Source: Candidatus Hydrogenedentota bacterium
GTDB taxonomy: Bacteria; Hydrogenedentota; Hydrogenedentia; Hydrogenedentales; JAEUWI01
NCBI GenBank assembly: GCA_016182605.1
Contig: JACPGE010000073.1
Location: forward strand, 1-64,000
Direction of reading: 5' to 3'
Length of the DNA stretch: 64,000 bases
Below the pieces are notes generated by a model that worked only from the letters and a program-made list of their open reading frames with translations, was not told the origin of the DNA and did no database searches. A program made the translations under genes and the position numbers. Below are positions 23,566 through 42,051 of the stretch, one piece after another (position 1 is the first letter of the stretch; each line of letters begins with the position of its first letter).

Positions 23566-23567
23566 GT

Positions 23568-25473: not shown

Positions 25474-25814
25474 CGCGACGCAGGCGCGTGAAACGCGAGC
25501 CGCGGGGGTATGTGCGGCGGTCTGCTACTGGTGAGTTGCCGCGGCGGCTGGTGATCGATGTGCGGTTTACGCGGGAGGAGTTGGTGGAGTATGTGTGCTG
25601 GTTAATTTGGGTCACTGAGCAGTGCTGTGAGGAGGATACTTCTGTTGTTGAGGAGTTCTCTGATCGTGAGTTTTGGAATGCAATGAAAGCCGAGGTGGCC
25701 GATCAGGGCCGGTTGAATTTCTCGGATTGGGGTGGTGGTGATAAGGAGGTGGATCAGGTGATCGTGTCGCGTGCGCGCGCGCTTGTGGCGCGGGTGTGGC
25801 CTGCGCATGGGTGA
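25470..25814 (+). CDS. Hypothetical phage protein
   Basis: The protein has 114 aa. The N-terminus is basic (TRRRRVKREPRGYVRR), followed by an acidic alpha-helical part. ATG overlaps the previous stop and AAGGAGG, contributed by the end of the REP-F element, lies 8 nt upstream. It overlaps the helicase gene by 8 nt. No family recognised. Confidence 0.5.
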   Translation: MTRRRRVKREPRGYVRRSATGELPRRLVIDVRFTREELVEYVCWLIWVTEQCCEEDTSVVEEFSDREFWNAMKAEVADQGRLNFSDWGGGDKEVDQVIVSRARALVARVWPAHG

Positions 25815-27204
25815 TCAATACCGTATAGCGCCGCAGGCGGTGGAGGCGGAGCGGAGTGTGCTGGGTGCGCTGCTGGTGGAGCCGGATGAGGTGGTGGGTG
25901 AGGTGGTGCGGGTGCTTGGGGCCACTGCGCGGATGTTTTATGTCGAGCCGCATTCGATGCTTTACGCGCATTTAACGCAGATGTATTTGCAGCGGACGCC
26001 TATCGACCCGACGACGGTGCTGGAGCGGCTGAGCCGGGCTGGGCGGCTGGAGGAGATTGGGGGGAGCGCGTACCTGGCGGAACTGATCAGTGCGGTGCCG
26101 AGCACGGCGAACGTGGGGTATTACGCGCAACTGGTTCGGGACGCGTTTGTGCTGCGGGAGTTGATGGCGCTGGGGGAGCAGTTGACGCGGGCCGCGGGCG
26201 CTGGGAGCGGGAGCCCGATGGAGGTGCTGGAGTCGACGGAGGGCGCGTTGCTGGCGCTGCGGGATGCGGCGCACGGGGGGCGGGAATTGACGCCGGTGGC
26301 TGTGGGGCTGGAGGAGGATATTTCGGCGATCATGGATATTTACGCGTCGGGTACGCTGGGGGGGTTGAGCACGGGCATCAGTTCGCAGGATCGCATCCTT
26401 GGGGGATTGCAGCCGGGCGATGTGACGATACTGGCGGCGCGTCCGAGTGTGGGGAAAACGGCGTTTTCGTTGAATGTGGCGCGGTATGTGGCGATGGAGC
26501 AGGAGAGCGCGGTGGCTTTTTTCAGCCTGGAGATGAGTGCGCGGAAGCTGCGCACGAGGCTGCTGTATATGGTGGGGCGCGTGAGCAAAATGGAGGTGGT
26601 GGACCGGCGGTGCAAGCAGATCGACTTGGAGCAGCGGCTGGAATATGCGCGTGGGCGTTTGTCAAAAATTCCGCTGTATGTTTTCGACGGCGGCGGGATC
26701 ACGCCGGCGACTATCCGGGGGGAGCTGCGGCGCTTGAACCGGAAGCAGCCGCCGCATGGCCGGGTGAAATTGGTGGTGGTGGATTATCTTCAGTTGATGA
26801 CGCATCCGGAGAAGTCGAACCAAAACCGTGAAGCGGAGGTGGCGGCGCTGTCGCGGGAGCTGAAGGCGTTGGCGGTTGAGGAGCACGTGCACGTGATGGC
26901 GCTGAGTCAGTTGAGCCGTGCTGGGGATGGGGAGCCGGATTTGAAGCACCTGCGCGAGTCTGGGGCTATCGAGCAGGATGCGGACGCGGTGATTTTCCTC
27001 TACCGGGCGCCGGATGCGCAGGAGGGGTTGATCACGCTGAAGATCGCAAAAAACAGGGATGGTGAGACCGGGGTATGTGAGGCCTATTTCCGGAAAGACT
27101 ACCAGGAGTTTCGGGCGGTGGTGCGGGAGCGGGACCCGGCAACGGTGACGTCTCCTGTGCAGAGTGAGTATGAGTATGACGAGGATGAACACGGCGCGTT
27201 TTGA
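25807..27204 (+). CDS. dnaB: Replicative DNA helicase, DnaB-like
   Basis: The protein has 465 aa. The N-terminal helical DnaB domain is IAPQAVEAERSVLGALLVEP. The RecA-type motor has Walker A RPSVGKTAF (K217), Walker B VVVDYLQLM (D326), motif ALSQLSR and the C-terminal DADAVIFLYR. It unwinds the phage origin together with the initiator encoded next. It is close to full length for bacterial DnaB, so it may replace rather than recruit the host helicase. It overlaps the upstream gene by 8 nt. Confidence 0.95.
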   Translation: MGDQYRIAPQAVEAERSVLGALLVEPDEVVGEVVRVLGATARMFYVEPHSMLYAHLTQMYLQRTPIDPTTVLERLSRAGRLEEIGGSAYLAELISAVPSTANVGYYAQLVRDAFVLRELMALGEQLTRAAGAGSGSPMEVLESTEGALLALRDAAHGGRELTPVAVGLEEDISAIMDIYASGTLGGLSTGISSQDRILGGLQPGDVTILAARPSVGKTAFSLNVARYVAMEQESAVAFFSLEMSARKLRTRLLYMVGRVSKMEVVDRRCKQIDLEQRLEYARGRLSKIPLYVFDGGGITPATIRGELRRLNRKQPPHGRVKLVVVDYLQLMTHPEKSNQNREAEVAALSRELKALAVEEHVHVMALSQLSRAGDGEPDLKHLRESGAIEQDADAVIFLYRAPDAQEGLITLKIAKNRDGETGVCEAYFRKDYQEFRAVVRERDPATVTSPVQSEYEYDEDEHGAF

Positions 27205-27224
27205 GCGCGGGAATTGGAGGGCGT

Positions 27225-28163
27225 ATGGCCGGGACGTATCGGCGGGTGGATGTTCGGGTGTGGAGCGATAAGCGGGTCCGTGCGCTGCCTGAGCGCGCCC
27301 GGCTGCTGTGGCTGTGGTTTATGACGAATGACCAGATCACGGCCGTGGGGGTGATGCGGCATCATCCTGGGGCTATCGCGCACGATCTCGGGTGCACGGA
27401 AGCGGAGTTGGCGGAGCCCGTGGGCGCGCTGCTGGCGGCCGGGATGATCCGGTACGAGTCCAGGGAAATGCTGTGGTGCGTGTGGAATTTCGTTCGATAT
27501 AACCTGCCGGACAATTGGAAGCAGATTATTAGCTGGGGCCGTACGATAGACCGGATGCCTGAGTGCGATCTGTTGGGTGAGTATCTGTTGCACGTGCGGG
27601 AGATACTGGCGAGCGAGGGCCGGGAAGCGCTGTTGGAGCGATTTGATACCGCAGTTTTACGGCGTTCTGGTGGTGCTGGAGAGGGTATGGATATGGGTAT
27701 CCAGACCGGGAAATCTGATTCAGGATTGGGTATGCCATTGGGTATAGGGAACCCAGAATCAGAAACGGAAACCGGGTATGCAATATCAGGAACAGGATCA
27801 GGAACAGGATCAGGAACAGAAACAGGAACAGGATCAGAAGGGCGGAGCGAGTCCGCCCCGATGGTGGAGGGTGATAGCGGATTGGGATTGTTTGCGGTGC
27901 TGCATGGTCCGCCGACGCCGGTGCCTGAGGCGTGGGTGCGCGCCTGGCGGGTGACGTTTCCGGGATTGGAGGTGCGCGCGGAGTTGTTGTCCGCGCGGCA
28001 GTGGCTGGAGGATAACCCCGCGCGGCGGAAGAAAAAAATCAAGGCGTTTCTTGGGGGTTGGTTGCGACGGGCGTGGGAACGTCTGCCGGAGGAGCGGCGC
28101 CGAGTGAAGGCGCCCGTTGCGCGGGTGGCGATTCGGACGGTTGAACTGGGTGCCCGGCAATGA
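27225..28163 (+). CDS. Replication initiator-like protein with internal iterons
   Basis: The protein has 312 aa. Residues 1-110 resemble the winged-helix N-terminus of phage replication proteins (YRRVDVRVWSDKRVRALPERA, LLWLWFMTND, VWNFVRYNLPDNWKQII). A Gly/Ser/Thr/Glu low-complexity linker (about 188-206, GTGSGTGSGTETGTG) is encoded by 12-bp iterons. A basic C-terminal helical region follows (ARRKKKIKAFLGGWLRRAWERLP). The position next to dnaB and the iterons inside the gene parallel lambda O. ATG 27225 has GGAGG 8 nt upstream. Confidence 0.7.
   Translation: MAGTYRRVDVRVWSDKRVRALPERARLLWLWFMTNDQITAVGVMRHHPGAIAHDLGCTEAELAEPVGALLAAGMIRYESREMLWCVWNFVRYNLPDNWKQIISWGRTIDRMPECDLLGEYLLHVREILASEGREALLERFDTAVLRRSGGAGEGMDMGIQTGKSDSGLGMPLGIGNPESETETGYAISGTGSGTGSGTETGTGSEGRSESAPMVEGDSGLGLFAVLHGPPTPVPEAWVRAWRVTFPGLEVRAELLSARQWLEDNPARRKKKIKAFLGGWLRRAWERLPEERRRVKAPVARVAIRTVELGARQ
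27786..27833 (+). repeat. Four 12-bp iterons, candidate replication origin
   Basis: Tandem units TCAGGAACAGGA, TCAGGAACAGGA, TCAGGAACAGAA and ACAGGAACAGGA lie within the initiator-like gene, followed by a partial TCAG. Iterons inside the initiator gene are how the lambda origin is organised. The 12-bp period also keeps the reading frame, so it could alternatively be a simple-sequence linker. Confidence 0.45.
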
Positions 28164-28417
28164 GCACCAAGGAGGGAATCATGATTGACAGGTTACCGAG
28201 CACGGACGATGTTGAGGCTTTCTGGAAGTTGAAGCCGGTATTCGATGGGTATTTTTCCAGCCGGGACGGGGCGACTGAGCATCGGTGGCGGCAGGAGCTT
28301 GGGCGTCCGGCGGATCGGTGGGTGAGGCTATTGCCGCGGCGCGCTCGAAACTTAGGAAGGAGGTTGACCGGGTGGGGATTTGTCGCTTACGTGAAGGGGC
28401 GGAAATATGACACCTGA
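28160..28417 (+). CDS. Small hypothetical phage protein
   Basis: The protein has 85 aa. ATG overlaps the previous stop; a second ATG at 28181 is possible, after AGGAGG-like GGAGGGAATC. It has a basic C-terminal half. It overlaps the next methyltransferase gene by 11 nt. Function unknown. Confidence 0.45.
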   Translation: MSTKEGIMIDRLPSTDDVEAFWKLKPVFDGYFSSRDGATEHRWRQELGRPADRWVRLLPRRARNLGRRLTGWGFVAYVKGRKYDT

Positions 28418-29390
28418 TTGGGCGATCGAGACTGGAGACTGTTTGGAGGTATTGAAGGGGATGGAGTCGGTCACTGCGCAGTGTTGCGTGACGAGTCCGC
28501 CGTATTTTAGGCTGCGGGATTATGGCCATGCTGGGCAGATCGGTCTGGAGTCCACGCCGGCGGAATACGTGGAGCGGTTGGTGGAGGTGTTCCGCGAGGT
28601 GTGGCGCGTGCTGAAGGATGACGGGATTCTGTGGCTAAACCTTGGAGATAGCTACTCGAGCTGCGGGAAGAACCGGACCGAGGCGCAGGCCACGGCGAAG
28701 ACGGGGCTGGGCGGCGGCGTGCGCACCCAATGCGCGAGCCTGGTGCAGCTGTCGAAGTTGTCGAAAGGGCTTAAGCCCAAAGACCTGATCGGTATTCCGT
28801 GGCGCGTGGCGTTTGCGTTGCAGTCGGATGGGTGGTATTTGCGGCAGGATATTATTTGGAGCAAGCCCAATTCGATGCCTGAGAGCACGCGGGACCGGTG
28901 CTCGCGGAGCCACGAATATATTTTTATGTTGACGAAGCGCCCGCGGTATTACTACGACTACGAGGCGGTGCGCGAGCCGATGACGACGCGGCGGGCATCT
29001 GCATTGAATTGGTGTCGTGACAGCAAGGAGGGGGAGGTGCCTGGCGCGAACAACAAGCAGCACCGGCTGGAACGCAAGGACAAACAGGCTGGTCATGGGC
29101 GGCGACGAGGGGTAGGGTTTCGCAACAAGCGGGACGTTTGGACGGTGAGTACACAGCCCTATACCGCGGCGCATTTTGCGACGTTTCCCCCCAAGTTGAT
29201 CGAGCCGTGCGTATTGGCTGGTAGCCGGGTGGGCGATCTGGTGATCGACCCCTTCAGCGGGGCCGGGACTACTGGCTTGGTGTCTGTGGTGCATGGGCGC
29301 AAGTATTTGGGGATTGAGTTGAATCCGGAGTATGTGGCGATGAGCGAGGCGCGGATTGAGGCGGCCACGCGGCAGGGCGTGTTGTTTTGA
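28407..29390 (+). CDS. TSPPY-type DNA methyltransferase (beta class)
   Basis: The protein has 327 aa of the N6_N4 methyltransferase family. Catalytic motif IV TSPPYF is at 29-34 and the SAM-binding FSGAGTT at 283-289. This order is typical of beta-class N4-cytosine or N6-adenine enzymes. Other blocks are LWLNLGDSYSS, IPWRVAFALQSDGW, DIIWSKPNSMPES and KLIEPCVLAGSR. There is no restriction partner nearby, so it is an orphan phage methyltransferase, the third in this prophage. Confidence 0.92.
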   Translation: MTPDWAIETGDCLEVLKGMESVTAQCCVTSPPYFRLRDYGHAGQIGLESTPAEYVERLVEVFREVWRVLKDDGILWLNLGDSYSSCGKNRTEAQATAKTGLGGGVRTQCASLVQLSKLSKGLKPKDLIGIPWRVAFALQSDGWYLRQDIIWSKPNSMPESTRDRCSRSHEYIFMLTKRPRYYYDYEAVREPMTTRRASALNWCRDSKEGEVPGANNKQHRLERKDKQAGHGRRRGVGFRNKRDVWTVSTQPYTAAHFATFPPKLIEPCVLAGSRVGDLVIDPFSGAGTTGLVSVVHGRKYLGIELNPEYVAMSEARIEAATRQGVLF

Positions 29391-29409
29391 AAGATGCGAG
29401 GACAAGAAC

Positions 29410-29715
29410 GTGAGCCAGTCCAGAACAGATACCGAACTTCAAGGGGAGCCCTGCATTGTGGGGCTCATCGAGGACACGGCGGATCTCATCTTTGCAAATT
29501 GTGGGCGCTGGCCCACGCTGTTGCGGTTTACTGAAACGGCCTTCTTCCGGTTCACCTTTTCTGAGACGGCCCGGTCGCGGCTGGCTGGGTTTGGATTGGG
29601 GTGGGTGTCCGCGGAGCAGATGACGTTGCGGCATGTGTCGGCGGTGTTCGGGGGGCGGTTCAGGGTTGAGATTTTACCGGATGGTGACTGTCCGGGGTTG
29701 ATGTGGTTGTTTTGA
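29410..29715 (+). CDS. Hypothetical phage protein
   Basis: The protein has 101 aa from GTG 29410. It has mixed alpha/beta sequence with no motif recognised (FRFTFSETARSRLAGFGLGW, GGRFRVEILPDGD). It is the last gene before the packaging block and the first repeat-loaded gap. Confidence 0.4.
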   Translation: MSQSRTDTELQGEPCIVGLIEDTADLIFANCGRWPTLLRFTETAFFRFTFSETARSRLAGFGLGWVSAEQMTLRHVSAVFGGRFRVEILPDGDCPGLMWLF

Positions 29716-29728
29716 CGAGGTGAAAACA

Positions 29729-29812
29729 GCCCCCCCTGCCCCCCCGCAAGCGGGGGGGAGGAATTGGGGCGAAGAAGAACTCGGACAGGAATGTCCAAGA
29801 TCCTTGGGAAGG
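29729..29812. repeat. Stacked REP-A and REP-B
   Basis: A REP-A hairpin (29729-29758) and REP-B (29781-29810) fill the gap; the downstream ATG follows 9 nt after REP-B. Confidence 0.8.
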
Positions 29813-29820
29813 GAACGGTT

Positions 29821-30369
29821 ATGACGGATTTAGATCTCTCAGTGTACAGTGAAGATGAAGTGCGGGCGATGCGAACGGCGCTGGGCATGGCGCTGGCTGG
29901 TGTGCCGCGGGACCGCGTTGTTGAATCGGTAACGGCCCAGGGGGTTGCGGATCCGGAGGGGTTCGTGACGGCGGCTGTGGAGCATGTGTGGCAGTTGCTC
30001 GGCCTGGAGGGGATGACGCGGGAGTTTCACGTGGCTGCGCGCTGGAGCTTGTATGGTTCGGCGCGGGCGGCAGGGGAACTGAAGATCTGCCGGGAATTGC
30101 TCACGGATTTGGCGCGGCTGCAGGGGCTGTATCCGGGGCAGCGCGCGGTGACAACGCCTGGCGGGGGGAGTGTGGAGTCTGGCGGGAAGGGGCCTGGTGT
30201 GGCAGTGGCGCCGGGGAAAATTACCAGTTTGGATGAGTGGTTGAATGCGCCTGTGTCCGGGCAGGCTGGAGGGAAGAAGAAGGGTTCTTCGAGGGGCCCT
30301 TCGACGGGATCCAGGAAGAAGAGCGCAACCACGAACGGCACGAAAGTCGCGAAAGGGAAAAAGGGATGA
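29821..30369 (+). CDS. Hypothetical protein at head of packaging block
   Basis: The protein has 182 aa. It is acidic and helical in the first 110 residues (EDEVRAMRTALGMALAGVPRD, ARWSLYGSARAAGELKICRE). The tail is Gly/Ser/Lys-rich and ends in KVAKGKKG. The tail overlaps a repeat-like stretch (about 30326-30369). It lies just before the small terminase gene and may assist packaging; no family recognised. Confidence 0.5.
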   Translation: MTDLDLSVYSEDEVRAMRTALGMALAGVPRDRVVESVTAQGVADPEGFVTAAVEHVWQLLGLEGMTREFHVAARWSLYGSARAAGELKICRELLTDLARLQGLYPGQRAVTTPGGGSVESGGKGPGVAVAPGKITSLDEWLNAPVSGQAGGKKKGSSRGPSTGSRKKSATTNGTKVAKGKKG

Positions 30370-30550
30370 AAACCGGACAGGAATGTCCGGGCCCCTTGGG
30401 AAGGGATCTCTCAGTCGCGGAACTCCTTCGAGATGACAGGGAGAGGCGGCGCGGAGCGCCGGGGACGGCATTCCCAAGGGGACCTTGGGAACGAGAAAGC
30501 AGAGATCCATGGGTAAGCATGGGTATTTCTAGAAACGGACAGGAGTGATC
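30370..30550. repeat. Stacked REP-B/C, REP-D, REP-G, REP-B
   Basis: In order: a B/C hybrid (GGACAGGAATGTCCGGGCCCC, 30376-30396), REP-D (30404-30443), REP-G (30446-30497) and a partial REP-B (GGACAGGAGTGATCC, 30537-30551) whose AGGAG serves as ribosome-binding site for the next GTG. Confidence 0.8.
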
Positions 30551-30552
30551 CA

Positions 30553-31155
30553 GTGCATGAATTGACGGCGGAGGAGCGGGAGGCGATGCGTTCCGCGCTG
30601 GCGCGGCGGAACGGGGGGATTCCGTTGACGCAAGAGGATCGGCGGTGGCTGCGGAAGGCGGAGAAGCTGCACGCGCAGGCGTTGCGCATTCAGGTATTCA
30701 AGGCGGTGCCGAAGGGGGAATATGCCGATATTTCGGGGCGGCAGGTGAAGGTTTTGAACGAACAGGCGTCCCGGTATGGATTGCCGTTGGCGGGTGCGAC
30801 GGTGGACCTGACGGTATTGATTCCGCGGTTCCATGATTTTCTGGCGGAGAACCGGTATAAGTTGCGGGCGCCGGAGGAGGAGGATCCGCTGTTGGCCGGC
30901 GCGGTTAGTCCGGGGTTGGAAAAGTACCGGAACCACAAGGCCGCACGAGAGGAGATTCGGCTCCGGGAGGACCTGGCGCAGAGCATTCCCCGGGAAGACG
31001 TGAAGGCCGGGTTCGGGTTGGTGGCGCAGCGGCTGCGACGGCTGGGCGACAAGCTGGCGGATCTCTATGGAGAAGAGGCCCGCGGGGTGCTGGAGGCATG
31101 TTTGGAGGATTGCGCTGTGGCTGTCCGGGAGTTGTTGGGCGCCGATGACGAGTGA
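30553..31155 (+). CDS. Terminase small subunit (putative)
   Basis: The protein has 200 aa. The N-terminal region (TAEEREAMRSALARRNGG) may be a recognition module. GEYADISGRQVKVLNEQASRY and GLPLAGATVDLTVLIPRFHDFL resemble Nu1-type helix-turn-helix small terminases, and the C-terminal half is long helices (KYRNHKAAREEIRLREDLAQ, RLRRLGDKLADLYGEEARGVL). It binds phage DNA for packaging with TerL, encoded two genes downstream. The GTG start has AGGAG 8 nt upstream. Confidence 0.65.
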   Translation: MHELTAEEREAMRSALARRNGGIPLTQEDRRWLRKAEKLHAQALRIQVFKAVPKGEYADISGRQVKVLNEQASRYGLPLAGATVDLTVLIPRFHDFLAENRYKLRAPEEEDPLLAGAVSPGLEKYRNHKAAREEIRLREDLAQSIPREDVKAGFGLVAQRLRRLGDKLADLYGEEARGVLEACLEDCAVAVRELLGADDE

Positions 31156-31180
31156 GGCCCTACTGGCCCCCCTGGGAGGC

Positions 31181-31250
31181 CCCTCCTGACGCCCCCGCAA
31201 GCGGGGGGGGAGGAAGGAAGGAATTCACGCAAAGCCGCGAAGGCGCAAAG
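31181..31250. repeat. Stacked REP-A and REP-E
   Basis: A REP-A hairpin at about 31190-31212 is followed by REP-E (TTCACGCAAAGCCGCGAAGG, 31223-31250) before the 31280 gene. Confidence 0.75.
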
Positions 31251-31279
31251 GGAAACACACGAATGGGAAGGATGAATAG

Positions 31280-31699
31280 ATGAAGATTAATGTGGCCGAG
31301 GATTTTTCAATGGTGCCCGGGGGGCGGTATCGGGCTGATGGGCCTTGGAGCGGGGAGCAGTTCCTGGAGGAGGTATTGGTTCCGGCGTTTCAGAAGCTGG
31401 CCCGGACTGAATTGCTGGAAATTGATTTTGATGGGGTGTTCGGGTGCGCGCCGTGTTGGATATCTGAGGTGTTCTATGGGCTGGGGTTGCGGTTCCCAGA
31501 AGATGAGGTGGCTGGCCGGATTGTGATTGTCGGGGAGAACAAGGCGCTTTTTTTGGAGGATGTGCGGGAGTCGCTGCGAGAGGGTTTGGCGGCGCGGAGC
31601 GCCGGGGACTGCATTCCCACGGGGGACCGTGGGAACGAGAGGAAATTGGACTCGGACAGGAATGTCCAAGATCCTGGTGGGTTACGAACTGAAGGGTAA
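31280..31699 (+). CDS. STAS-like DUF4325-type protein with repeat-encoded tail
   Basis: The protein has 139 aa. Residues 1-95 fit the DUF4325 STAS-like layout: GGRYRADGPWSGEQFLEEVL, then LLEIDFDGVFGCAPCWISEV and FPEDEVAGRIVIVGEN. The last ~36 residues are translated REP-G and REP-B (31589-31676, giving ARSAGDCIPTGDRGNE and DSDRNVQDPG), so the original stop was lost or bypassed. Its role in a packaging block is unknown. Confidence 0.55.
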   Translation: MKINVAEDFSMVPGGRYRADGPWSGEQFLEEVLVPAFQKLARTELLEIDFDGVFGCAPCWISEVFYGLGLRFPEDEVAGRIVIVGENKALFLEDVRESLREGLAARSAGDCIPTGDRGNERKLDSDRNVQDPGGLRTEG

Positions 31700-31702
31700 T
31701 TG

Positions 31703-33835
31703 ATGGCGGTGATGGTGTGGACAGAACCTCGCGTGCGGCCGGCGCTGGAGGAGTTGCTGTGGATGCTGGGGGAGGCGCGTTCCCGGGCACGGCGGCCGCT
31801 TTCGCGGTTCATGGTGGAAGAGGTACGGCTGCCGACAGGGCCGATGGCGGGCGAACCTTACAACCTGGCCACACAGCCGTATTCGCGGTTGTTCTGCGCG
31901 GCGGTGGACTCGGGCCGGTACACGGATTTCCTGTCCACGGGCCCTACGCAGAGCGGGAAGACGTTGACGACGGCGCTGGGCCCTATGGCGTGGCACCTCT
32001 TCGAGTGGCAGGAGCCGGTCATTTTTGGGCTGCCGAATGATGATATGCGCAGGGACAAATGGGAAGACGATGTCCTCCCAATGATCGAGGCCACGCGGTA
32101 CCGGGAGCTGTTGCCGACGCGCGGCCCGGGCAGCCGCGGTGGTGATCCGGGCGCCCGGATTCGATTTTCCCACGGGGTGGTGGTCCGGTTTATGACCGGC
32201 GGCGGTGCGGACAAGTCCCGCGCGGGAAAGACGGCGCGGGTGTTGGTGGCGACGGAGGTGGAAGCGTTCGACCTGGTGAAGAGCACGAGCGCGGAGGGTA
32301 CGCAGATTGAGCAGTTGGAGGCACGGACGCATGCGTTTGGGAGCCGTGCGCGCAAGTACAAGGAGTGCACGGTGACGACGAGCACCGGCTACGTGTGGCG
32401 CAAGTACGCCGCGGGCAGTATGACGCGGCCCTGGTATCCGTGCGCGCATTGCGGCACGTGGGTGAGTTTGGACCGGGAGAATTTTCACGGGTGGCAGGAG
32501 GCGGAAACGGAAGTGGATGCGTTCTCGAACGCACGATTGGTGTGTACGGCGTGCGGCGTGCTCTGGACGGACGACGAGCGGCGTTGGAGTGTGGGGCAGA
32601 TGGCGGCGGTGCACCGGGGCCAGCGGATAGTGGAAGCGTCGGGCCCCACCGCAAGCGGGCCCCCCATTCCCCCCCCCGCAAGCGGGGGGGGATGGGAGGG
32701 GAATCTCGGACAGGAATGTCCAAGATCCTTAGGTGTGCCTGTGATCGAGGGGGATGCGCCGAAGACGTTCAGTTTTACGTTGCGGTGGAACGGGGCTGAA
32801 AATTTATTGATGGACCAGGGCCAGATCGGTGTAGCGGAGTGGCAGTCTGCGCGTGCGGAGAAGGCGGACGAGGCGGAACGGGCGATGTGCCAGTTCTACT
32901 GGGCGCGCGCGATCGACGACGACACCGAGAACAGCGTTGATCTGACGGTGCAGAGTCTGACGGAGCGCTTGGGTGATTGGGTGCGCGGTGTGTGCCCGGC
33001 GGACACGATGTGCGTGACGGCTACGCTGGACATGGGAAAACACGTGGCGCATTGGCTGGTGCTCGCGTGGCGGGAGGACGGATCGCCGCACGTGGTGGAC
33101 TACGGGACGATTACTGTGCGGTGGCGGGAGTTGGGGCTGGAGAACGCGATCACGAGCGCGTGCTGGGAATTTGCGGAGATTTGCGAGGCAGGCTGGCTTC
33201 ATGAGAATCAGAGCCGGGTGCCTGATGTGCGCTGGATCGATTCGGGTGGCGAGTGGGCTAAGCAGGTCTATGATTTTTGTAAGACAACGAACTACGCGTA
33301 CAGGCCGATGAAGGGCTTCGGGGCGAGTCAGGATTTTGAAAAGAGCTACATGCAGCCGAAGAGCACGGGGAGCACTGTGCTGCACATCGGGGAGCAGTAT
33401 CACGTGGCGTTTGTGGCAGAGACGGGCGTTCGGTTGATCGAGGTGAATGCGGATTACTGGAAGAGCTACGCATATCGCCGGCTGATGACGCCAGTGGAGA
33501 AGCCGGGTGGTCTGACGCTGTACCGGACGCTGAGCAGGGATCACAGGGCATTCGCGCTGCATTTACTGGCGGAGCGCCGTGAACTGGAGTGGGTGCCTGA
33601 GACGGCGCGATCGTTGGGCCCGCGGAAGGGCGGCTGGCGGGAGCGGTGGGTGAAGGTGAACCGGAACAATCACTGGGGAGACACGTTCTATATGGGGTGC
33701 GCGGCTGCGCATCATGGCGGGGTGCGGTTGGAGATAGATAGCGCTGAGGGTGATGGGGGACCCCGCCCCGTGGTGGCTCCGCCGCGAAGAGTGGCGGGGC
33801 GCAAGCGGCGGGGTGTGGTGATGTACAGGAAGTGA
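31703..33835 (+). CDS. Terminase large subunit (GpA-type) with in-frame repeat insertion
   Basis: The protein has 710 aa, the phage packaging ATPase/nuclease. Walker A is STGPTQSGKT (K86). GpA-type features include VLVATEVEAFD, the zinc-like CAHCG and CTACG, FSFTLRWNGAENLL, the nuclease-region TLDMGKHVAHW, and IDSGGEWAKQVYDFC. Residues about 312-347 are encoded by REP-A plus REP-B (32641-32735): PIPPPASGGGWEGN, then GQECPRSLG. The insertion lies in the linker between ATPase and nuclease halves and keeps the frame. ATG 31703 is used. Confidence 0.92.
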   Translation: MAVMVWTEPRVRPALEELLWMLGEARSRARRPLSRFMVEEVRLPTGPMAGEPYNLATQPYSRLFCAAVDSGRYTDFLSTGPTQSGKTLTTALGPMAWHLFEWQEPVIFGLPNDDMRRDKWEDDVLPMIEATRYRELLPTRGPGSRGGDPGARIRFSHGVVVRFMTGGGADKSRAGKTARVLVATEVEAFDLVKSTSAEGTQIEQLEARTHAFGSRARKYKECTVTTSTGYVWRKYAAGSMTRPWYPCAHCGTWVSLDRENFHGWQEAETEVDAFSNARLVCTACGVLWTDDERRWSVGQMAAVHRGQRIVEASGPTASGPPIPPPASGGGWEGNLGQECPRSLGVPVIEGDAPKTFSFTLRWNGAENLLMDQGQIGVAEWQSARAEKADEAERAMCQFYWARAIDDDTENSVDLTVQSLTERLGDWVRGVCPADTMCVTATLDMGKHVAHWLVLAWREDGSPHVVDYGTITVRWRELGLENAITSACWEFAEICEAGWLHENQSRVPDVRWIDSGGEWAKQVYDFCKTTNYAYRPMKGFGASQDFEKSYMQPKSTGSTVLHIGEQYHVAFVAETGVRLIEVNADYWKSYAYRRLMTPVEKPGGLTLYRTLSRDHRAFALHLLAERRELEWVPETARSLGPRKGGWRERWVKVNRNNHWGDTFYMGCAAAHHGGVRLEIDSAEGDGGPRPVVAPPRRVAGRKRRGVVMYRK
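32641..32735. repeat. REP-A plus REP-B inside the TerL gene
   Basis: CCCCCCCCGCAAGCGGGGGG lies at about 32669-32690, and TCGGACAGGAATGTCC with its AAGATCCTTAGG tail at 32705-32732. The order matches the intergenic stacks. Confidence 0.85.
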
Positions 33836-33840
33836 GGGGA

Positions 33841-33925
33841 GGCCCCTTCGGCAGGCTCAGGGACCGGCAAGGGAATAGGTCGTATAGGACGTATACCGGG
33901 CGGGATGTCCGGGCTCCTGGGGGAA
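33841..33925. repeat. REP-H and REP-C-like
   Basis: CCCCTTCGGCAGGCTCAGGG (33843-33862) is followed by GGGCGGGATGTCCGGGCTCC (33898-33917) in the gap after TerL. Confidence 0.7.
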
Positions 33926-33977
33926 TGCCCGCTGTGAATTGTTCAGGGCTTGGAGAGGCCCTGGTTACTCTTGAAGG

Positions 33978-34445
33978 ATGTCGACCATGACGGAAATAGT
34001 TTTGGAGCGGAGGATGGTGGAAGTGCCCATGGCCGTGGAGACGGAAGGGTACGTGAGTGGGCATGTGGAGGTGCAGTTGCGCACCCGTGAACAGAAGCTT
34101 GCCCTGAAGCGCGTGACGGTGGCGCTGAAGGAAAGCGGGGCGCGATTGGTGAACGGGCGTGTGGTGGATAATGGCGGCGATGCGATCCGCTGGTTGCTGG
34201 AGCAGCTGGCCGGGGTGGGCGTATCGGCGCCGGTGGTGACGTGGGCCGACGCTGCTGAAGCGGCCCCTCCTGCCTCACCGCAATCGGCCCCCCCGGGCCC
34301 CCCCTGCCCCCCCGCAAGCGGGGGGGTGCCGAGTGCGGATGGTTTTCCGCCGGTGCCCAGTGTGCAGGCGGTGTCCGTTGGTGGCCGCCGGGTGAAGGGG
34401 AAGAAAGGGAAGAAAGGTGTCGGCGCCGCCTTGGCCGCCAACTAG
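33978..34445 (+). CDS. Hypothetical protein with REP-A-encoded Pro-rich segment
   Basis: The protein has 155 aa. Residues 1-90 look folded (VEVQLRTREQKLALKRVTVALKE, DAIRWLLEQLAGVG). A Pro/Ala stretch PPGPPCPPASGGV around 108-120 comes from a REP-A copy (34285-34328). A basic tail GKKGKKGVG follows. It lies directly after TerL. Function unknown. Confidence 0.5.
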   Translation: MSTMTEIVLERRMVEVPMAVETEGYVSGHVEVQLRTREQKLALKRVTVALKESGARLVNGRVVDNGGDAIRWLLEQLAGVGVSAPVVTWADAAEAAPPASPQSAPPGPPCPPASGGVPSADGFPPVPSVQAVSVGGRRVKGKKGKKGVGAALAAN

Positions 34446-34452
34446 CCCCCTG

Positions 34453-34580
34453 CAAGCTCCCCCACTGCCCCCCCCCGCAAGCGGGGGCGCAGGGGGGGGA
34501 GGCGGTAGGAGTCTGGAGTCTGGAGGGATAGAAAGAGGGGGAGGCACGCAAAGCCGCAAAGGGGAACAAGATCCTTTGGG
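34453..34580. repeat. REP-A and REP-E between converging genes
   Basis: A long REP-A variant (34459-34500) and REP-E (CACGCAAAGCCGCAAAGG, about 34543-34562) fill the gap between the plus-strand gene and the end of the antisense cassette. Confidence 0.7.
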
Positions 34581-34582
34581 GA

Positions 34583-35050
34583 TTAATCGGGGAGTAGTGC
34601 TGCGGCGGCGATGACGCCGGCGCTGATCTCGTTTTCGGGTGTGGCGTGGATGAGCTTTTGGGCGATGCTGGGGGGTATGTAGATGCTATAGGTTTGGCCG
34701 CGTTCACCGTGTTTTGATGGCCGCCCGGTGGATCGGCCCGTGGGTCGGCCTTTGACGATCTCGGGAGGGAGCCCCCCCTGCCCCCCCGCAAGCGGGGGGG
34801 TGGGCATGGGGGCGTAGGTGGAGAATTTCCGGGCGGTGCTGTAGTAGCGGGCCTGTGGGTTCGACTGGCTGGAGACGGTTTTGGGGCAGTGCCACCAGAC
34901 GGAGCAGGCGGGCGCCACGATGCGTTCCGCGATGCGCTGGGCATCCGCGGGGTCGTGGTAGTTTTTGGTGCCTACGGCGTACCAGCGGCCCGTTTTGGGG
35001 TGTTTGGCGCGGATCGAGAACATTACCTGGTAGTGGGTATTCGGGGTCAT
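34583..35050 (-). CDS. Antisense cassette gene 5: two-part protein joined by REP-A
   Basis: The protein has 155 aa. Residues 1-78 form one module (YQVMFSIRAKHPKTGRWYAVG, DAQRIAERIV). A segment PTPPLAGGQGGLP, encoded by a REP-A copy read in reverse (34771-34801), joins it to a C-terminal part. That part (GRPSKHGERGQTYSIYIPPS, then AQKLI) looks like a ribbon-helix-helix DNA-binding protein. AGGAG precedes the ATG, which overlaps the upstream gene by 4 nt. The repeat may have fused two genes or replaced a linker. Confidence 0.6.
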   Translation of the reverse strand: MTPNTHYQVMFSIRAKHPKTGRWYAVGTKNYHDPADAQRIAERIVAPACSVWWHCPKTVSSQSNPQARYYSTARKFSTYAPMPTPPLAGGQGGLPPEIVKGRPTGRSTGRPSKHGERGQTYSIYIPPSIAQKLIHATPENEISAGVIAAAALLPD

Positions 35051-35364
35051 TGGGTGGGCTCCTGTTTCAGCCGGTGGCGACGGATTTTTACGGCGGTTTG
35101 TGAGATGCCGAGCTTTTCCGCCGCTGTGGCGTTATTGTGTTGTATTACAGTTTTATTCATGGCGGGAGACCATGTGATCTCTCGCCGGAAGGCGGGGATG
35201 CCGAGCGCCACGCGGCGGCGGCGGACAAACTCCGCAGACCTCCCTATGTCGGCTGCTATGGCCGCGTCGGGCTCTTTGCCTAACCGCTTGAGTGTGCGCT
35301 TGTCGAGGGATTCTTTTGCCGCGTCTGCGGTCATCACAGATCGGGGTGTATGCTTTGTGCGCAT
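35047..35364 (-). CDS. Antisense cassette gene 4: HTH-like protein
   Basis: The protein has 105 aa. It has two helix-turn-helix-like halves. The first is AIAADIGRSAEFVRRRRVAL (about 35-54). The second is AAEKLGISQTAVKIRRHRLK near the C-terminus. It is very basic. It is likely a DNA-binding regulator, possibly of the cassette or the surrounding late genes. GAGGG lies upstream of the ATG. It is coupled to gene 5. Confidence 0.65.
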   Translation of the reverse strand: MRTKHTPRSVMTADAAKESLDKRTLKRLGKEPDAAIAADIGRSAEFVRRRRVALGIPAFRREITWSPAMNKTVIQHNNATAAEKLGISQTAVKIRRHRLKQEPTQ

Positions 35365-35367
35365 CGT

Positions 35368-35598
35368 CTAAGCCCTCGGCTTGTACCAGTCGGGGGCCTG
35401 GTATCCGGCGCGATACTCGGCGGCGATGCGGCGGCGGGTGGCGGCGGCATGCTCGTAGGGCGCTGCCTTATATGGCCCGCCGAGCATGCCGTTGGTTCGC
35501 TCGGCAGTCTCATAGCAGGCGCGGGCGTAGCGGTCCAGAATGCGGGCTTTCGCTTCTTGTTCGGCGGCGCAGGCGTCGAGTTCTTCTTGGGTTTTCAT
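35368..35598 (-). CDS. Antisense cassette gene 3: small helical protein
   Basis: The protein has 76 aa, Ala/Glu/Arg-rich and helical (EELDACAAEQEAKARILDRY, HAAATRRRIAAEYRAG). AGGAG lies before the ATG. It ends 3 nt before gene 4. No family recognised. Confidence 0.55.
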   Translation of the reverse strand: MKTQEELDACAAEQEAKARILDRYARACYETAERTNGMLGGPYKAAPYEHAAATRRRIAAEYRAGYQAPDWYKPRA

Positions 35599-35629
35599 GG
35601 TTTTTGGCTCCTTTTTGGGGGTTAGTCTA

Positions 35630-35839
35630 TTACCAGGCTTTTCCGACGGGACTGTTCCCGTCAGTATTTAGGTAACCGATCTGTCCGTCACTTGCCCGAT
35701 ACCATTGGGCAAATATTTGATCATCAGGGTATTCTCGCGCCGCAGTGATTGCCGCCGCCCGTGCCGCATTGTCTGTTTTGCACTCGGATAATATCTCCGA
35801 TTTTCCGCCTGCCGCTACTCTCACAATCTTGATCTTCAT
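35630..35839 (-). CDS. Antisense cassette gene 2: small protein
   Basis: The protein has 69 aa. The pattern is KIKIVRVAAGGKSEILSECK, a helix, then FAQWYRASDGQIGYLN. GGAGAGAGAAG lies directly before the ATG, and a CTCCCC/GGGGAG hairpin lies just upstream (about 35850-35870). Unknown function. Confidence 0.55.
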   Translation of the reverse strand: MKIKIVRVAAGGKSEILSECKTDNAARAAAITAAREYPDDQIFAQWYRASDGQIGYLNTDGNSPVGKAW

Positions 35840-35880
35840 CTTCTCTCTCCGTGGGGAGGTTGCCCTCCCCGGTTGGGGGG

Positions 35881-36114
35881 TTAGTCCTGGACCTCGCGGG
35901 CCGCGCCTGCGGCTGCACGGACAATGCGGTTGAGGTCTGATTTTTGGGCGTACTGGAGCGCGCGGGCGCCCATCCAGGCCGGGGTAATGGTATAACTGTA
36001 GTCTCCGTAGACTATGATCTCGCCGGTTTTCCCCGCTACGGCTATCGTGCCCGCCGTGCGAGCCGCCTCGCCCTCAACTCGCGTTACCGTTATCTGGATT
36101 TTGTCGTTTTCCAT
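35881..36114 (-). CDS. Antisense cassette gene 1: small beta-rich protein
   Basis: The protein has 77 aa from ATG 36114 with GGGAGA upstream. It has beta-strand-like sequence (KIQITVTRVEGEA, GEIIVYGDYSYTIT) and then an Ala-rich helix. It is the first gene behind the strong minus-strand promoter at 36164-36192. Unknown function. Confidence 0.6.
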   Translation of the reverse strand: MENDKIQITVTRVEGEAARTAGTIAVAGKTGEIIVYGDYSYTITPAWMGARALQYAQKSDLNRIVRAAAGAAREVQD

Positions 36115-36163
36115 CGTTCTGTCTCCCTGTTGTCTCAGCGCCCCGTGCGCCATCTATGTTTGA

Positions 36164-36192
36164 ATTATACAATGTAGATTGGAGAATTGCAA
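36164..36192 (-). promoter_or_regulatory. Near-consensus promoter of the antisense cassette
   Basis: On the minus strand there is -35 TTGCAA (36187-36192), exactly 17 bp, then -10 TATAAT (36164-36169). It lies in an AT-rich island unlike the surrounding DNA. It should be active in the lysogen with host sigma-70-type polymerase and opposes late transcription. Confidence 0.75.
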
Positions 36193-36597
36193 GAGGGAAA
36201 TTTTGTTCAGTGGAAGGGCGAGGAGTGTGGAGGAGGAGGAGGAGATCTCTCCGTCGCGTGGCTCCGTTCGAGATGACAGGGTGTGGGTGGCGTCCGGGGT
36301 GTCCGGGCTGTCCGGTTCCGGACGGGGCGGAAGGGGTTCCAATTATTCCGGGGGCGTGCTACGGTTGGGGCTGATAAAGTTGAATTCAGGTATTCCCCCC
36401 CACCCAGGGGCGGTCTTCGGTGATGTCCGGGGCCGCCCCGCCCTTTTTTCGCGGCGGTGATGGAGATGGAGTTTTTCCCCGTGGATGCGTGTGCTACCTC
36501 CTGCCCCCGGAGCCCTCACCGGTGCATGTGTCCACGGGGAGATTTTTAGGGATGGGGACCTTGGTAACGAGGCTGTAGGGCCTACGTGGAGGTGGTG
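36193..36597. other. Gene-free gap with REP-D, hairpin and REP-G fragment
   Basis: It contains REP-D (36239-36282, GAGATCTCTCCGTCGCG to TTCGAGATGACAGGG). A hairpin GGGGCGG..CCGCCCC lies at 36407-36439 with TTTTTT at 36444-36449, a possible plus-strand terminator. A partial REP-G (GGGGACCTTGGTAACGAG) is at 36553-36570. No gene seen. Confidence 0.6.
36407..36449 (+). terminator. Possible intrinsic terminator in the late-operon gap
   Basis: A 7-bp GC stem (GGGGCGG with CCGCCCC), a 19-nt loop, and TTTTTT four nt after the stem. The long loop makes it weaker than a canonical terminator. Confidence 0.35.
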
Positions 36598-36900
36598 ATG
36601 GCGTTGCTGGATGCGGATGCGACATTTGAAGAGATTCAGGCCGCGGTGCTGGGCAATGCGGACTATGACGTGTCCAACAGCACTGAGAAGGCGCGTGCGT
36701 TCATTCAGGCGTGCCGGATGTATCTGATCCTGCTGACGGATGAAACGGAGGCGGGCGCCAACCGGGTGCGTGAGGATCCGGTGAAGGTGCGGGAGATGCT
36801 GACGCGGGCCGAGGTTTGGCTGAGGCCGCGGGATACTTCGGGTGGCATGGGCCGGACGCCGGGTCACGTGCGGCGATTTGACCTTCGACGGTTTCGGTGA
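36598..36900 (+). CDS. Small head protein at gpW position (putative connector)
   Basis: The protein has 100 aa. GGAGGTG lies 6 nt before ATG 36598. It is helical: ALLDADATFEEIQAAVLGNA, EKARAFIQACRMYLILLTDE, VREMLTRAEVWL. In lambda the small head-tail joining protein W sits between TerL and portal, as here, but sequence similarity to gpW is not evident to me. Confidence 0.5.
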   Translation: MALLDADATFEEIQAAVLGNADYDVSNSTEKARAFIQACRMYLILLTDETEAGANRVREDPVKVREMLTRAEVWLRPRDTSGGMGRTPGHVRRFDLRRFR

Positions 36901-36907
36901 GTGGCGA

Positions 36908-36942
36908 GGACCCCCCTTTATCCCCCCGCAGGCGGGGGGAGA
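36908..36942. repeat. REP-A before the portal gene
   Basis: CCCCCCTTTATCCCCCCGCAGG followed by CGGGGGGAGAG. It is a REP-A variant with GCAGGC in place of GCAAGC. Confidence 0.7.
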
Positions 36943-37049
36943 GAGGAAGCCAATCGGGAGATTGGCGGTCCCAGTAGGACTTGGCGATCCCAGGGAACGG
37001 ATAATCGGAGACGGTGGTGAAGCGATCTGGACGACACAGAGACGCAGCG

Positions 37050-38627
37050 ATGAATCCGGTAGCGGCCTTTTCCGGGCTGCGATCGGATTACGAGCAGGTG
37101 AAGGCCAATCGCTGGCGTTCGTTTATCATAGGTGGGTGCGGTCAAGGTACTGACGGCGACTTCTCCTATCGGAGCGACGCCGACTATTACCGCATCATGT
37201 CCCTGGCGCGCCAGTTCGACGAGAATGATTCGCTGATTGGCCAGGGGCTGGACCGTCTTGAGCGCAACGTTGTTCAGGACGGGATGCAACTGGACCCAAA
37301 GACGGGGCTCGCGGAACTGAACACCTACCTCGCCGCGAAGTGGAGCGCCTGGTGCGACACCCCCGAGGCCTGCGATATGTCGCAGGAACGGGACTTCCAC
37401 GGGATGGCCCGGATGGTGCTGCGGAGCGTAATCCGTGACGGTGACATTCTTGCGCTGATGACGAACACGGGCGCGGTGGAACTGATCGAGGGCCACCGGC
37501 TCAAGACCCCGCACCGCACCCGGAAATCCGTGGTGCATGGCATCCTGATCGACCGGTACCGGCGGAAGCTTGAGTACTGGATTACGCGATCGGACCTGGG
37601 CATTCTGGGCACGGTGACCCGTGCCGATCAGGTGGAAAAGGTGCCCGCGCGCGACCGTGCCGGCAACCTGCAGGCCCTACACATTTGCGATCCCCGGCGC
37701 GTCACCCAGACCCGTGGTGTCAGCGCGCTGGTGCGGGTCTTCGATATGATCGGCATGCTGGGCGATATCAATTTTGCGAAGCTGGTGCAACAGCAGATTC
37801 TGTCCTGTTTTGCCATTCTCCGGACTCGGCCCCTCGGCGGCGCGGACGGTTTTGGTCAACCCACAGGCTACGGTGACAGCACTACCGAGGCCAAGGCTGA
37901 CGGTAGCGGTACGGAATTGCTCGAGGGCATTGGCCCGGGCATGGAGGTCACCGGCGAGCCCGGTGAACAACTCGAGGGGTTCTCCCCGAACGTGCCAGGC
38001 CAGGGGTATTTTGAACAGGCGAAATTAATCATAACGATCATCGCCATCAATCTCGGGTTGCCCGTGCACGTACTGTTGCTCGACCCGAGCGACACGAATT
38101 TTTCCGGCTGGCGTGGTGCCATCGACCAGGCCCGCTTGGGCTGGCGCCACTTGCAGTACGGTATTTTGGTCAAGCAATTCTACCGGCCTGTGTACCAATG
38201 GAAACTGCGGGATTGGCTGGTTACGGACCCGGAATTGCGCCGGTTGGTGGCGACCCTCGACAATCCCGAGGATGTTTTCAAGGCGCGTTTTCTCACTCCG
38301 CGCTTCCCCTATATTCAACCCGAGGTGGATGCGCAGGCGGACGCGGAGATCATCGGCAAGATGCTCGACTCCCGCCGGGGCGTGCTCGCGATGCGCGGAC
38401 GCGATATCGAGCACGTGGATCAGGAGATTGTTGATGACAATGCGTCCCTGATCACGCGCGCGCTGGAGAAGCTGGCCGAGATCAAGGGAAAGTTTGGGGA
38501 GTTGGCGGAGGATGTGAGCTGGCGCGATATGCTGGGCCTGTGGGAAGTGCAGCCCGGGAGTGCGCCGGCGGCGGCGGGTCAAGACGGCGCCAAGGGGCGT
38601 AAGGTTCCGAAAGGGAAGGCGGCGTAG
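37050..38627 (+). CDS. Phage portal protein (lambda B family)
   Basis: The protein has 525 aa. It forms the dodecameric DNA-entry vertex. Family-typical segments are ADYYRIMSLARQFDENDSLI, GQGLDRLERNVVQDGMQLDP, RDGDILALMTNTGAVELIEG, HVLLLDPSDTNFSGWRGAID and KARFLTPRFPYIQPEVDAQAD. ATG 37050 is given; a GTG at 37017 has a better-spaced GGAG and would add 11 residues. It precedes the protease gene as in lambda. Confidence 0.92.
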   Translation: MNPVAAFSGLRSDYEQVKANRWRSFIIGGCGQGTDGDFSYRSDADYYRIMSLARQFDENDSLIGQGLDRLERNVVQDGMQLDPKTGLAELNTYLAAKWSAWCDTPEACDMSQERDFHGMARMVLRSVIRDGDILALMTNTGAVELIEGHRLKTPHRTRKSVVHGILIDRYRRKLEYWITRSDLGILGTVTRADQVEKVPARDRAGNLQALHICDPRRVTQTRGVSALVRVFDMIGMLGDINFAKLVQQQILSCFAILRTRPLGGADGFGQPTGYGDSTTEAKADGSGTELLEGIGPGMEVTGEPGEQLEGFSPNVPGQGYFEQAKLIITIIAINLGLPVHVLLLDPSDTNFSGWRGAIDQARLGWRHLQYGILVKQFYRPVYQWKLRDWLVTDPELRRLVATLDNPEDVFKARFLTPRFPYIQPEVDAQADAEIIGKMLDSRRGVLAMRGRDIEHVDQEIVDDNASLITRALEKLAEIKGKFGELAEDVSWRDMLGLWEVQPGSAPAAAGQDGAKGRKVPKGKAA

Positions 38628-38633
38628 GGAAGA

Positions 38634-38672
38634 AACATCCCCCCTTCCCCCCTTCGAAGGGGGACCAGGAGC
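38634..38672. repeat. REP-I before the protease gene
   Basis: ACATCCCCCCTTCCCCCCTT followed by CGAAGGGGGACCAGGA. It is the same family as at 42836-42874 and as the insertion in the C5 methyltransferase (21831-21873). Confidence 0.75.
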
Positions 38673-38688
38673 GGGAGAGGAAGTTGGC

Positions 38689-40146
38689 GTGAAGGATGAG
38701 ACCGCGATAAACGGGGACTTGGTGCAGGCGCTGGCGGGCCCTTGGGCCATGGCCGAAGAGCATGCGCTGATGCTTGGTGCCTGGTTGCGCGCCGCGCAGG
38801 GCACGGTTCGCGCCACTCCTGCGGTTGATACCGGCTACCTCGATCGGGGCGTGCACGTGATCGAGATCGTTGGGACGCTGTACAAGGGCAGCGTGAACGC
38901 CTATGGCATGCAGTTCGCGGGCACGCTGGAACTGGCAGCGCGGGTGCGCGCGGCGGACAGTTCCCCGTCTTCCAAGGCGATCGTGTTGTATATGGACACG
39001 CCGGGCGGCATGGTGGCGGGGACGAACGAACTGGCGATGGCGGTGCGTGACTGCAAGAAGCCGACGATAGCCGTGGTGAGTGACCTGTGCGCGAGCGCGG
39101 GGTACTGGGTGGCATCGCAGGCCGATTACATCATTGCCAACGAAACATCGCTGAACGGCAGTCTGGGCACCTACGCGCTGCTTTATGACTGGAGCGGCAT
39201 GTTTGCCTCGGTTGGGGTCAAGGCCTACGTGGTGCGCGCCGGTGAATTCAAGGGCGCCGCTGCAATGGGTACCGAGATCACAGAGAAGCAGTTGGCAGAA
39301 TTTCAGCGGACGGTGACCGATATCAATGGGATTTTTCTGCGTAGCGTGGCCAATGGCCGTGGTGCGCGGTTGCCGGACGTTTCCCAGGTGGCCACAGGCC
39401 AGGTGTGGATTGCCGAAGAGGCCCTTTCCAAGGGGCTGATCGACGGTATTGGCACACTGGACGAGGTGGTTGATCGGTTGGTGAAGTCGGGAGTCTTTAG
39501 TCTGGAGGGGGGAGGGGGGAGGAGATCTCTCAGTCGCGGAACTCCTTTCGAGATGACAGGGGGAAAGAGCGTCAGTGGCGTGGATGGGGAAGAAAAAACT
39601 TTAACCGGCGGCGTGGCCGCTTTGAATATGGAGGACGATGCGATGGATCCGGTAAAAACCGAGACTGCCGCGGCGCCGGTGGCGGCGACGTTGGCGGAGT
39701 TGAAGGGCAAGTTTGCCGATGCGGGTTCCGATTGGCTGGTGGCGCAACTGGAATGCGGCGCCACGATGGCGACGGCTCAGGACGCCTACACGACGCTGTT
39801 GCGCGAGCGCACGAAGGCCGCGGAAGCGCGTGCCGTGGCTGCGGAGGCGGCAGCTCTGGAAGCGCAGAAGACGCCTGCGGCGGCGGCCGCGGCGCTCTCC
39901 AAACCGGAGAAGGGCGCGGAAAGCTTCACGGGTGTGGCTGCGGTGGGGGACAACGGCGTGTCCGCGTCTTCCGGCACGGGCGGTGCAGACGGCGGCTTTC
40001 AGGCGCGGCTGGACGAACTGACGGCGCAGGGAAAGACGTCGCAGGAGGCCATGCGCATTGCCGCGAAGGAGGACCCGGATGGCCGGGTGGCCTGGGTGGC
40101 GGCGCACAACCGGAGCAAAGGGAACTCGGCTGCGGTGACGGTGTAG
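38689..40146 (+). CDS. S49 prohead protease with C-terminal scaffold (lambda C-like)
   Basis: The protein has 485 aa. The SppA-like protease has catalytic S136 (LCASAGYW) and K188 (AGEFKGA), with LYMDTPGGMVAGT forming the oxyanion region. Residues about 276-295 (RRSLSRGTPFEMTGG) are translated REP-D (39516-39560) at the boundary to the scaffold part. The scaffold part is Ala/Glu-rich (LLRERTKAAEARAVAAEAAA) and ends with a helical tail. As in lambda, the C-terminus probably acts as scaffold for capsid assembly. GTG 38689 is used, with GAGAGG 8 nt upstream. Confidence 0.9.
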   Translation: MKDETAINGDLVQALAGPWAMAEEHALMLGAWLRAAQGTVRATPAVDTGYLDRGVHVIEIVGTLYKGSVNAYGMQFAGTLELAARVRAADSSPSSKAIVLYMDTPGGMVAGTNELAMAVRDCKKPTIAVVSDLCASAGYWVASQADYIIANETSLNGSLGTYALLYDWSGMFASVGVKAYVVRAGEFKGAAAMGTEITEKQLAEFQRTVTDINGIFLRSVANGRGARLPDVSQVATGQVWIAEEALSKGLIDGIGTLDEVVDRLVKSGVFSLEGGGGRRSLSRGTPFEMTGGKSVSGVDGEEKTLTGGVAALNMEDDAMDPVKTETAAAPVAATLAELKGKFADAGSDWLVAQLECGATMATAQDAYTTLLRERTKAAEARAVAAEAAALEAQKTPAAAAAALSKPEKGAESFTGVAAVGDNGVSASSGTGGADGGFQARLDELTAQGKTSQEAMRIAAKEDPDGRVAWVAAHNRSKGNSAAVTV

Positions 40147-40152
40147 GCCTTC

Positions 40153-40237
40153 GGCCCCCCCTGGCCCCCCCGCAAGCGGGTGGGATAGGGAAATTCTAAC
40201 CACAAAGAGCGCAAAGAGCGCAGAGAAAAAAGAGACA
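40153..40237. repeat. Stacked REP-A and REP-F
   Basis: REP-A (40154-40184, GCAAGCGGGTGGG variant) is followed by REP-F (40196-40235, TAACCACAAAGAGCGCAAAG). Confidence 0.8.
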
Positions 40238-40272
40238 AACAGCCGCCGGTGGCGGTGATGGAGGAGACGACG

Positions 40273-40908: not shown

Positions 40909-40939
40909 GCGCAGTTGAATTGGACAATTGAAAACAGCG

Positions 40940-41013: not shown

Positions 41014-41074
41014 AATGGCTAATTGAAGAGGAAGACAACTTTCGCCGTGGTGGCGATGATGGAGGAGCTAGGCG

Positions 41075-42049: not shown

Positions 42050-42051
42050 TC

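Follow-up and report, generated by a model that had tools for sequence, protein, structure and literature searches.

How has a block of short repeats come to lie, in frame, inside the gene for the motor that packages a phage's DNA, and what has become of the gene product? REPs have mostly been studied as extragenic repeats of chromosomes. The locus considered here lies in a 64-kb stretch of DNA (the window), which makes up most of the 67,516-bp contig C129 in a draft genome of 6.76 Mb from a Candidatus Hydrogenedentota bacterium, and which holds a prophage (Table 1). The att core of the prophage is an exact 18-bp repeat (11730–11747 and 59345–59362), the left copy of which overlaps the 3′ end of a tRNA-Ser(gct) gene (11657–11746) and is adjoined by an integrase gene (11883–13022). 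Among the prophage genes are those for DnaB, methylases, the terminase large subunit (TerL), portal, an S49 protease and the major head protein. An initial annotation had proposed that a REP-A and a REP-B element together add about 35 residues to TerL, between its ATPase and nuclease halves and without breaking the frame.

Table 1. Coordinates of the prophage, the terL gene and the repeats discussed in the text (positions in the window).
Feature	Coordinates	Strand	Basis
Prophage	11730..59362	.	bounded by two 18-bp direct repeats (att core)
A-B cluster, order as in the TerL insert	29739..29805	+	repeat scan, cluster order
E and B repeats in 3′ tail of DUF4325 ORF (31280–31699), just upstream of terL	31586..31676	+	ORF overlap; not coding by codon test
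terL, predicted GpA-type terminase large subunit, 711 aa from TTG (ATG at 31703)	31700..33835	+	PF05876, PF20454, phrog_15
Region within which the net insertion of 99 nt (33 codons) lies; its ends cannot be placed exactly	32637..32745	+	alignment gap in L140–L142
A-like hairpin, first unit of insert	32641..32662	+	sequence by eye; paired in fold
Repeat A, GC hairpin, core CCCCCGCAAGCGGGGG	32660..32700	+	A repeat family
Repeat B, exact copy of GGACAGGAATGTCCAAGATCC with flanks	32705..32730	+	B repeat family
Repeat A in ORF 33987–34445	34307..34324	+	codon test
Repeat D in head maturation protease gene, past the S49 domain	39518..39561	+	repeat scan, codon test
Repeat A in ORF 42159–42467	42368..42385	+	codon test
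Repeat A in ORF 45267–46028	45526..45543	+	codon test
Longest intergenic cluster, A-F-C-B'-D	47016..47202	+	repeat scan, cluster order

The terL reading frame is open over its full length, and its predicted product is a GpA-type terminase in which both GpA domains exceed the curated Pfam cut-offs: PF05876 (GpA_ATPase) matches residues 54–298 (E 1.1e-26) and PF20454 (GpA_nuclease) residues 378–676 (E 2.1e-20). The protein also matches phrog_15 (E 2.9e-40). As a single-protein query, TerL found no relative in viral contigs or genome contigs, two partial matches among plasmids and 31 records in a phage collection, none of them spanning 80% of the query; PDB sequences gave no match at E <= 1, and an alignment of seven distant TerLs offered no stretch sufficiently conserved to serve as a query. 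Close relatives were reached through the head protein, followed by two-sequence alignment, a route that led to five loci. Three of these, L140, L141 and L142, carry the closest TerLs found, all full-length, at 41, 39 and 38% identity. In the alignment of TerL with these relatives (A3, which excludes the TerLs L143 and L144 that the wider alignment A4 includes), K86, E185, D443, D513, D660 and four cysteines (C247, C250, C281 and C284) are invariant, and K86 is nearly invariant in A4. We take K86 to be the Walker A lysine, the three aspartates to be acidic nuclease residues, the cysteines to be paired and residues 184–185 to be the Walker B site. The latter pair (numbered from the ATG) reads T-E in TerL and its three close relatives, and D-E in most distant homologues.

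Alignment A3 contains the unaligned stretch that the initial annotation led one to expect, where L140 and L141 each show 33 gap columns and L142 shows 34, between conserved flanks. From the GQ of HRGQ to the first G of GDAP there are 42 residues in TerL against 9, 9 and 8 in L140, L141 and L142, a gain of 33 or 34; a cruder landmark count (71 residues against 40, 40 and 39) gives 31–32 rather than 33, because the landmark string starts two residues earlier in TerL. The extra stretch occupies the linker between the ATPase and nuclease domains, and the frame runs through it, the sequence on either side scoring 0.35 and 0.41 for coding. An in-frame insertion between the two halves of the protein is thus borne out, in an open frame that retains the residues invariant among the close relatives. 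Its size and content need amending: the net gain is 33 residues, and the insert comprises two A-type GC hairpins and one exact B. The AlphaFold2 model of TerL is poor (mean pLDDT 47.2); residues 312–346 appear in it as low-confidence coil, which lends weak support to a predicted position in a linker. Positions 32653–32703 fold with −36.1 kcal/mol and the 109-nt insert region is more stable than its shuffles (z −3.10). Three block-shuffled windows yielded no match to B, C, D, E or F, and 0, 1 and 1 to A.

Several other origins for the stretch were set aside. Chance resemblance to the repeats is ruled out by the exact copies, and splitting of the gene followed by re-fusion by L140, L141 and L142, which are single chains. 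An intein or intron was set aside by size alone, 33 residues being far below the size of an intein. Among the relatives searched we found no near-identical phage free of the insert, so the empty site is one that we infer across 38–41% identity.

Is the linker itself a place where terminases vary? Between the second cysteine pair and the landmark that follows, nine of 11 homologues have 27–40 residues and L143 and L144 have 80, against 71 in TerL. L143 and L144, at 16–17% identity, carry an unrelated segment at the insert site, some 40 residues above the others, so linker length is not constant outside this lineage either. The long extra loop is absent from all three close relatives and from six of the eight distant homologues measured, the eight being our own selection (L010, L048, L053, L056, L057 and L059 were excluded). 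Homologues with an equivalent loop of the same length but unrelated sequence had been named as what would tell against the reading; L143 and L144 partly answer to this, the other nine homologues do not, and the unrelated segments do not undo a repeat-made insert in TerL. They do indicate that the site varies, which makes an insertion there less surprising. In-frame REPs in conserved genes, too, are already described in passages of PMC3733652.

The insert belongs to a larger population. Inside the att sites lie 45 repeats of families A–F, and 44 of them are on the + strand, the strand of the late genes (two-sided p 2.6e-12); one E copy, at 13128, is antisense to its neighbours. This count comes mainly from one scan, from which the weak matches A 48596 (in a gene) and C 44169 and the minus-strand duplicates of palindromic A were removed, with E1 merged into E and D 40952 and C 45202 added; the D scan that gave 40952 covered the + strand only. 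Two more matches in the window fall outside the att sites, one to C (562) and a loose one that is D-like (8558). When gaps are measured between + strand genes scoring >19, a repeat is found in 15 of the 18 gaps of at least 40 nt from 29716 onward, against 1 of 9 earlier, and 9 of 16 A copies stand 13–35 nt past a stop codon. There is also order within the clusters. For ten multi-repeat clusters, listed by hand and leaving aside A and D copies that stand far from each other in two long gaps, the order A, F, C, B, D, E fits 25 of 27 pairs (counting B' as B), the best that any order attains and equalled by 31 of 4000 permutations. In the eight that lie outside both terL and the DUF4325 ORF, 24 of 25 pairs follow an order (equalled by 11 of 4000); one of the eight, whose A falls within the end of ORF 56388–56765, is 'intergenic' only loosely. 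The A-B insert in TerL fits this order, which for two families alone is an even chance, and the same A-then-B arrangement recurs in the cluster at 29739–29805. Recurrence and non-random order lend indirect support to the earlier suggestion that the repeats are mobile as blocks; movement itself we infer.

The same regularities would suit a different reading, that the clusters are working elements of late-operon mRNA, as 3′-end hairpins or gene spacers, with the copy in TerL misplaced or even at work, for example in slowing ribosomes between the two domains. Placement on the late-gene strand, the position of A copies just past stop codons, the filling of gaps from 29716 onward and the recurring order all favour it, and the strand bias is compatible with strand-specific insertion and with a role in RNA alike. 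Against it, families B, C and E are spread across the host genome as well, the E copy at 13128 is antisense to its neighbours, and for several repeats taken singly the fold is no more stable than that of shuffles (z +0.85 and +0.92 for D, −0.60 for C and 0.01 for A at 42350). The term 'palindromic' suits A and B better than D. On balance we regard a working mRNA element as possible, though improbable.

The repeats generally keep out of genes. By a codon-score test, with a model trained on 13 window genes that include TerL itself, 6 of the 45 prophage repeats lie in coding sequence compared with 930 of 1500 random places; the six fall in five genes, namely TerL (twice), the protease and three small ORFs. 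Plain overlap with the gene list gives 10 of 45, in eight ORFs. In the host, B, C and E give 104 matches, one of them coding, compared with 1020 coding places among 2120 random ones; overlapping stretches caused at least one match (C90:54073) to be counted twice. The lone coding match is marginal and adjoins a RAYT-like gene on contig C59. The proportions 6/45 and 1/104 are not like for like, since five of the six are A or D, families scarce in the host; with B, C and E alone, the coding share is 1/18 in the prophage and 1/104 in the host. The data show that the repeats avoid genes in both prophage and host, while greater permissiveness of the prophage is not proved. The D repeat in the protease gene lies in a stretch of low similarity, with no net gain in length demonstrable against the related phage contig L068.

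Where do the families come from? B has 43 copies in the genome at <=1 mismatch, against none for a reversed-pattern control, a number below the >100 usual for REPs according to passages of PMC2817692. Seven are on C129, all on the + strand; of the 36 elsewhere, 32 belong to groups in which both orientations occur within 400 bases (hand count). E has 74 copies at <=2 mismatches, including about a dozen inverted pairs 50–54 nt apart. Host copies of B and E thus often form inverted pairs, and prophage copies of B are single; inverted doublets, the unit by which REPINs are recognised, are formed by the host pairs and not by the prophage copies. Among 100 genomes searched, B is present in five, that of the window and four of the six from its family, these four belonging to a single genus, and exact B occurs in a named genome collection at five loci in two isolates, all Candidatus Hydrogenedentota. 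By contrast with B, 15 of 17 genome copies of A are on C129, the other two being on C70, and D is confined to C129 (4/4 copies). No donor for D was found in the 99 other genomes searched, nor any exact match in viral contigs; the B'-D-E stretch has no match among phages, and its two plasmid matches cover the E part only. B is a host REP-like family, and A, nearly private to the prophage, is REP-like only. Next to the two A copies on C70 (L077:4240-5040) is sequence that, in translation, looks like a CRISPR repeat array. L065, a viral contig whose head protein gene is related, has interspersed repeats of its own (9909–11046 and 17931–17966) that differ from those in the window; one family was found there in four direct-repeat copies.

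RAYT-like genes accompany two of the families. On C59 a RAYT-like ORF runs to 894, and inverted pairs of B follow from 912; no B was found in the ~180 bases between the gene and the contig end upstream, and the B units examined near this gene have no GTAG or CGTC tag by eye. On C45, inverted copies of C at 622(−) and 1361(+) surround a RAYT-like gene ending at 1310, the upstream C lying outside the gene only with the chosen start at 687, since the longest ORF, from 468, includes it. The C59 and C45 proteins score 68.1 and 78.4 bits against an NCBIfam cut-off of 80 (for C59, NF047646 at E 7.2e-19) and exceed the Pfam Y1_Tnp cut-off. Beside the A copies on C70, the listed ORFs include no RAYT-like gene and the contig has no Y1_Tnp match.

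We therefore favour, as the probable history, entry of a small palindromic repeat block (A-like, A, B) into terL in this phage lineage, where it was retained in a tolerant linker. Behind this reading stand the extra stretch relative to three relatives, the intact frame, the retained invariant residues, the identity of the repeats, the linker site, the spread of B through the host and the RAYT-like neighbours of B and C. Retention would follow from the position between ATPase and nuclease, from a length that is a multiple of three bases and from the lack of an in-frame stop. The block could have been moved by a RAYT acting on single-stranded DNA or by recombination between repeat clusters. Counting against this account are the lack of a RAYT-like gene, among the listed ORFs, by the A copies on C70, the single state of prophage B and the scores of the RAYT-like proteins below the NCBIfam cut-off. 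Selection would remove most other insertions into genes, leaving survivors between genes and in linkers. TerL with the insert reads on and may be functional; it would then still package DNA.

Two further readings seem unlikely to us. The prophage could be decaying and the insert a neutral scar in a dead gene, for which one might cite the stretch 34446–36585, 2.1 kb of the late region with no + strand gene above the score limit (two A repeats and one D lie there). Yet both att repeats are present, the TerL, portal, protease and head protein ORFs are uninterrupted and each matches its own family, and TerL retains its invariant residues. Similarly doubtful is the idea that the A-F-C-B-D cluster is a mobile unit of the phage, which would borrow host RAYTs and insert into one strand of replicating phage DNA while single-stranded, the copy in TerL being a unit caught in a gene; phages would then be carriers of REP families between hosts. 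Less probable still is that the insert splits TerL, a start after B (GTG at 32735 or 32741) yielding a separate nuclease half. B does shortly precede start codons elsewhere (42954–42979 and 54937–54962), and in terL it is followed by GTG codons with a nearby AGG (by eye), but the open frame, the coding scores on either side and the single chains of the three close relatives oppose it. That the lineage has a native loop whose likeness to the repeats is coincidental, or that the assembly is at fault, is hardly credible given the exact B, the matching A and the A-B order repeated at 29739–29805, even with two distant TerLs carrying unrelated long segments at the site and the sequence coming from one assembly.

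Entry of a repeat block into terL has parallels in known systems. In Rickettsia, palindromic elements in frame within conserved protein genes are tolerated, as passages of PMC2229807 and PMC10969869 describe; those elements are ~105–150 bp long and lie in Rickettsia genes, which distinguishes them from the insert here, made up of three short units (net 99 nt) and located in the gene of a phage. Also related are the intragenic GTAG/CGTC REPs, single or grouped within ORFs such as uvrA, dnaE2 and recB, the grouped inserts encoding 20–30 or more residues (passages of PMC3733652). The tag, present in most but not all REPs of that study in the same passages, was not seen by eye in B, and the target here is a phage terminase; the main text of PMC3733652 has no word-start match for 'phage'. 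RAYT-associated REPs and REPINs, as described in parts of PMC2817692 and PMC3116915, resemble the short palindromes B and C beside RAYT-like genes and the inverted B and E pairs of the host, and differ from the prophage copies of B, which are single and all on one strand. The start-associated sequences of Cluster K mycobacteriophages are likewise short scattered phage repeats, mostly in one orientation and scarce in the host (passages of PMC3203893), but they lie at start codons, whereas here A is mostly just past stops and B, C and E are also host-wide. No report of a REP in a terminase was found in the open-licence literature, among the matches listed. In-frame intragenic REPs are thus already published; the novelty lies in the target, a phage terminase, and in the swarm of repeats on one strand between the att sites. 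REP-like repeats are densely set there, and one block of them sits in the packaging motor gene. If this TerL works, the insert marks a naturally tolerant insertion point in the protein, and offers a direct way into two questions: whether REP families travel between bacteria with phages, and by what route RAYT-linked repeats arrive at new sites.

Three minor observations concern the surroundings. The prophage has a DUF5131 gene (23523–24872), a relative of which lies directly downstream of terL in L068. In the host flank there is a weak Cas6 match at 679–1683 (E 6.8e-6; score 27.2 bits, cut-off 25). Just beyond the right att site, a large Big_9/cadherin-like repeat gene (59615–64000) runs off the window.
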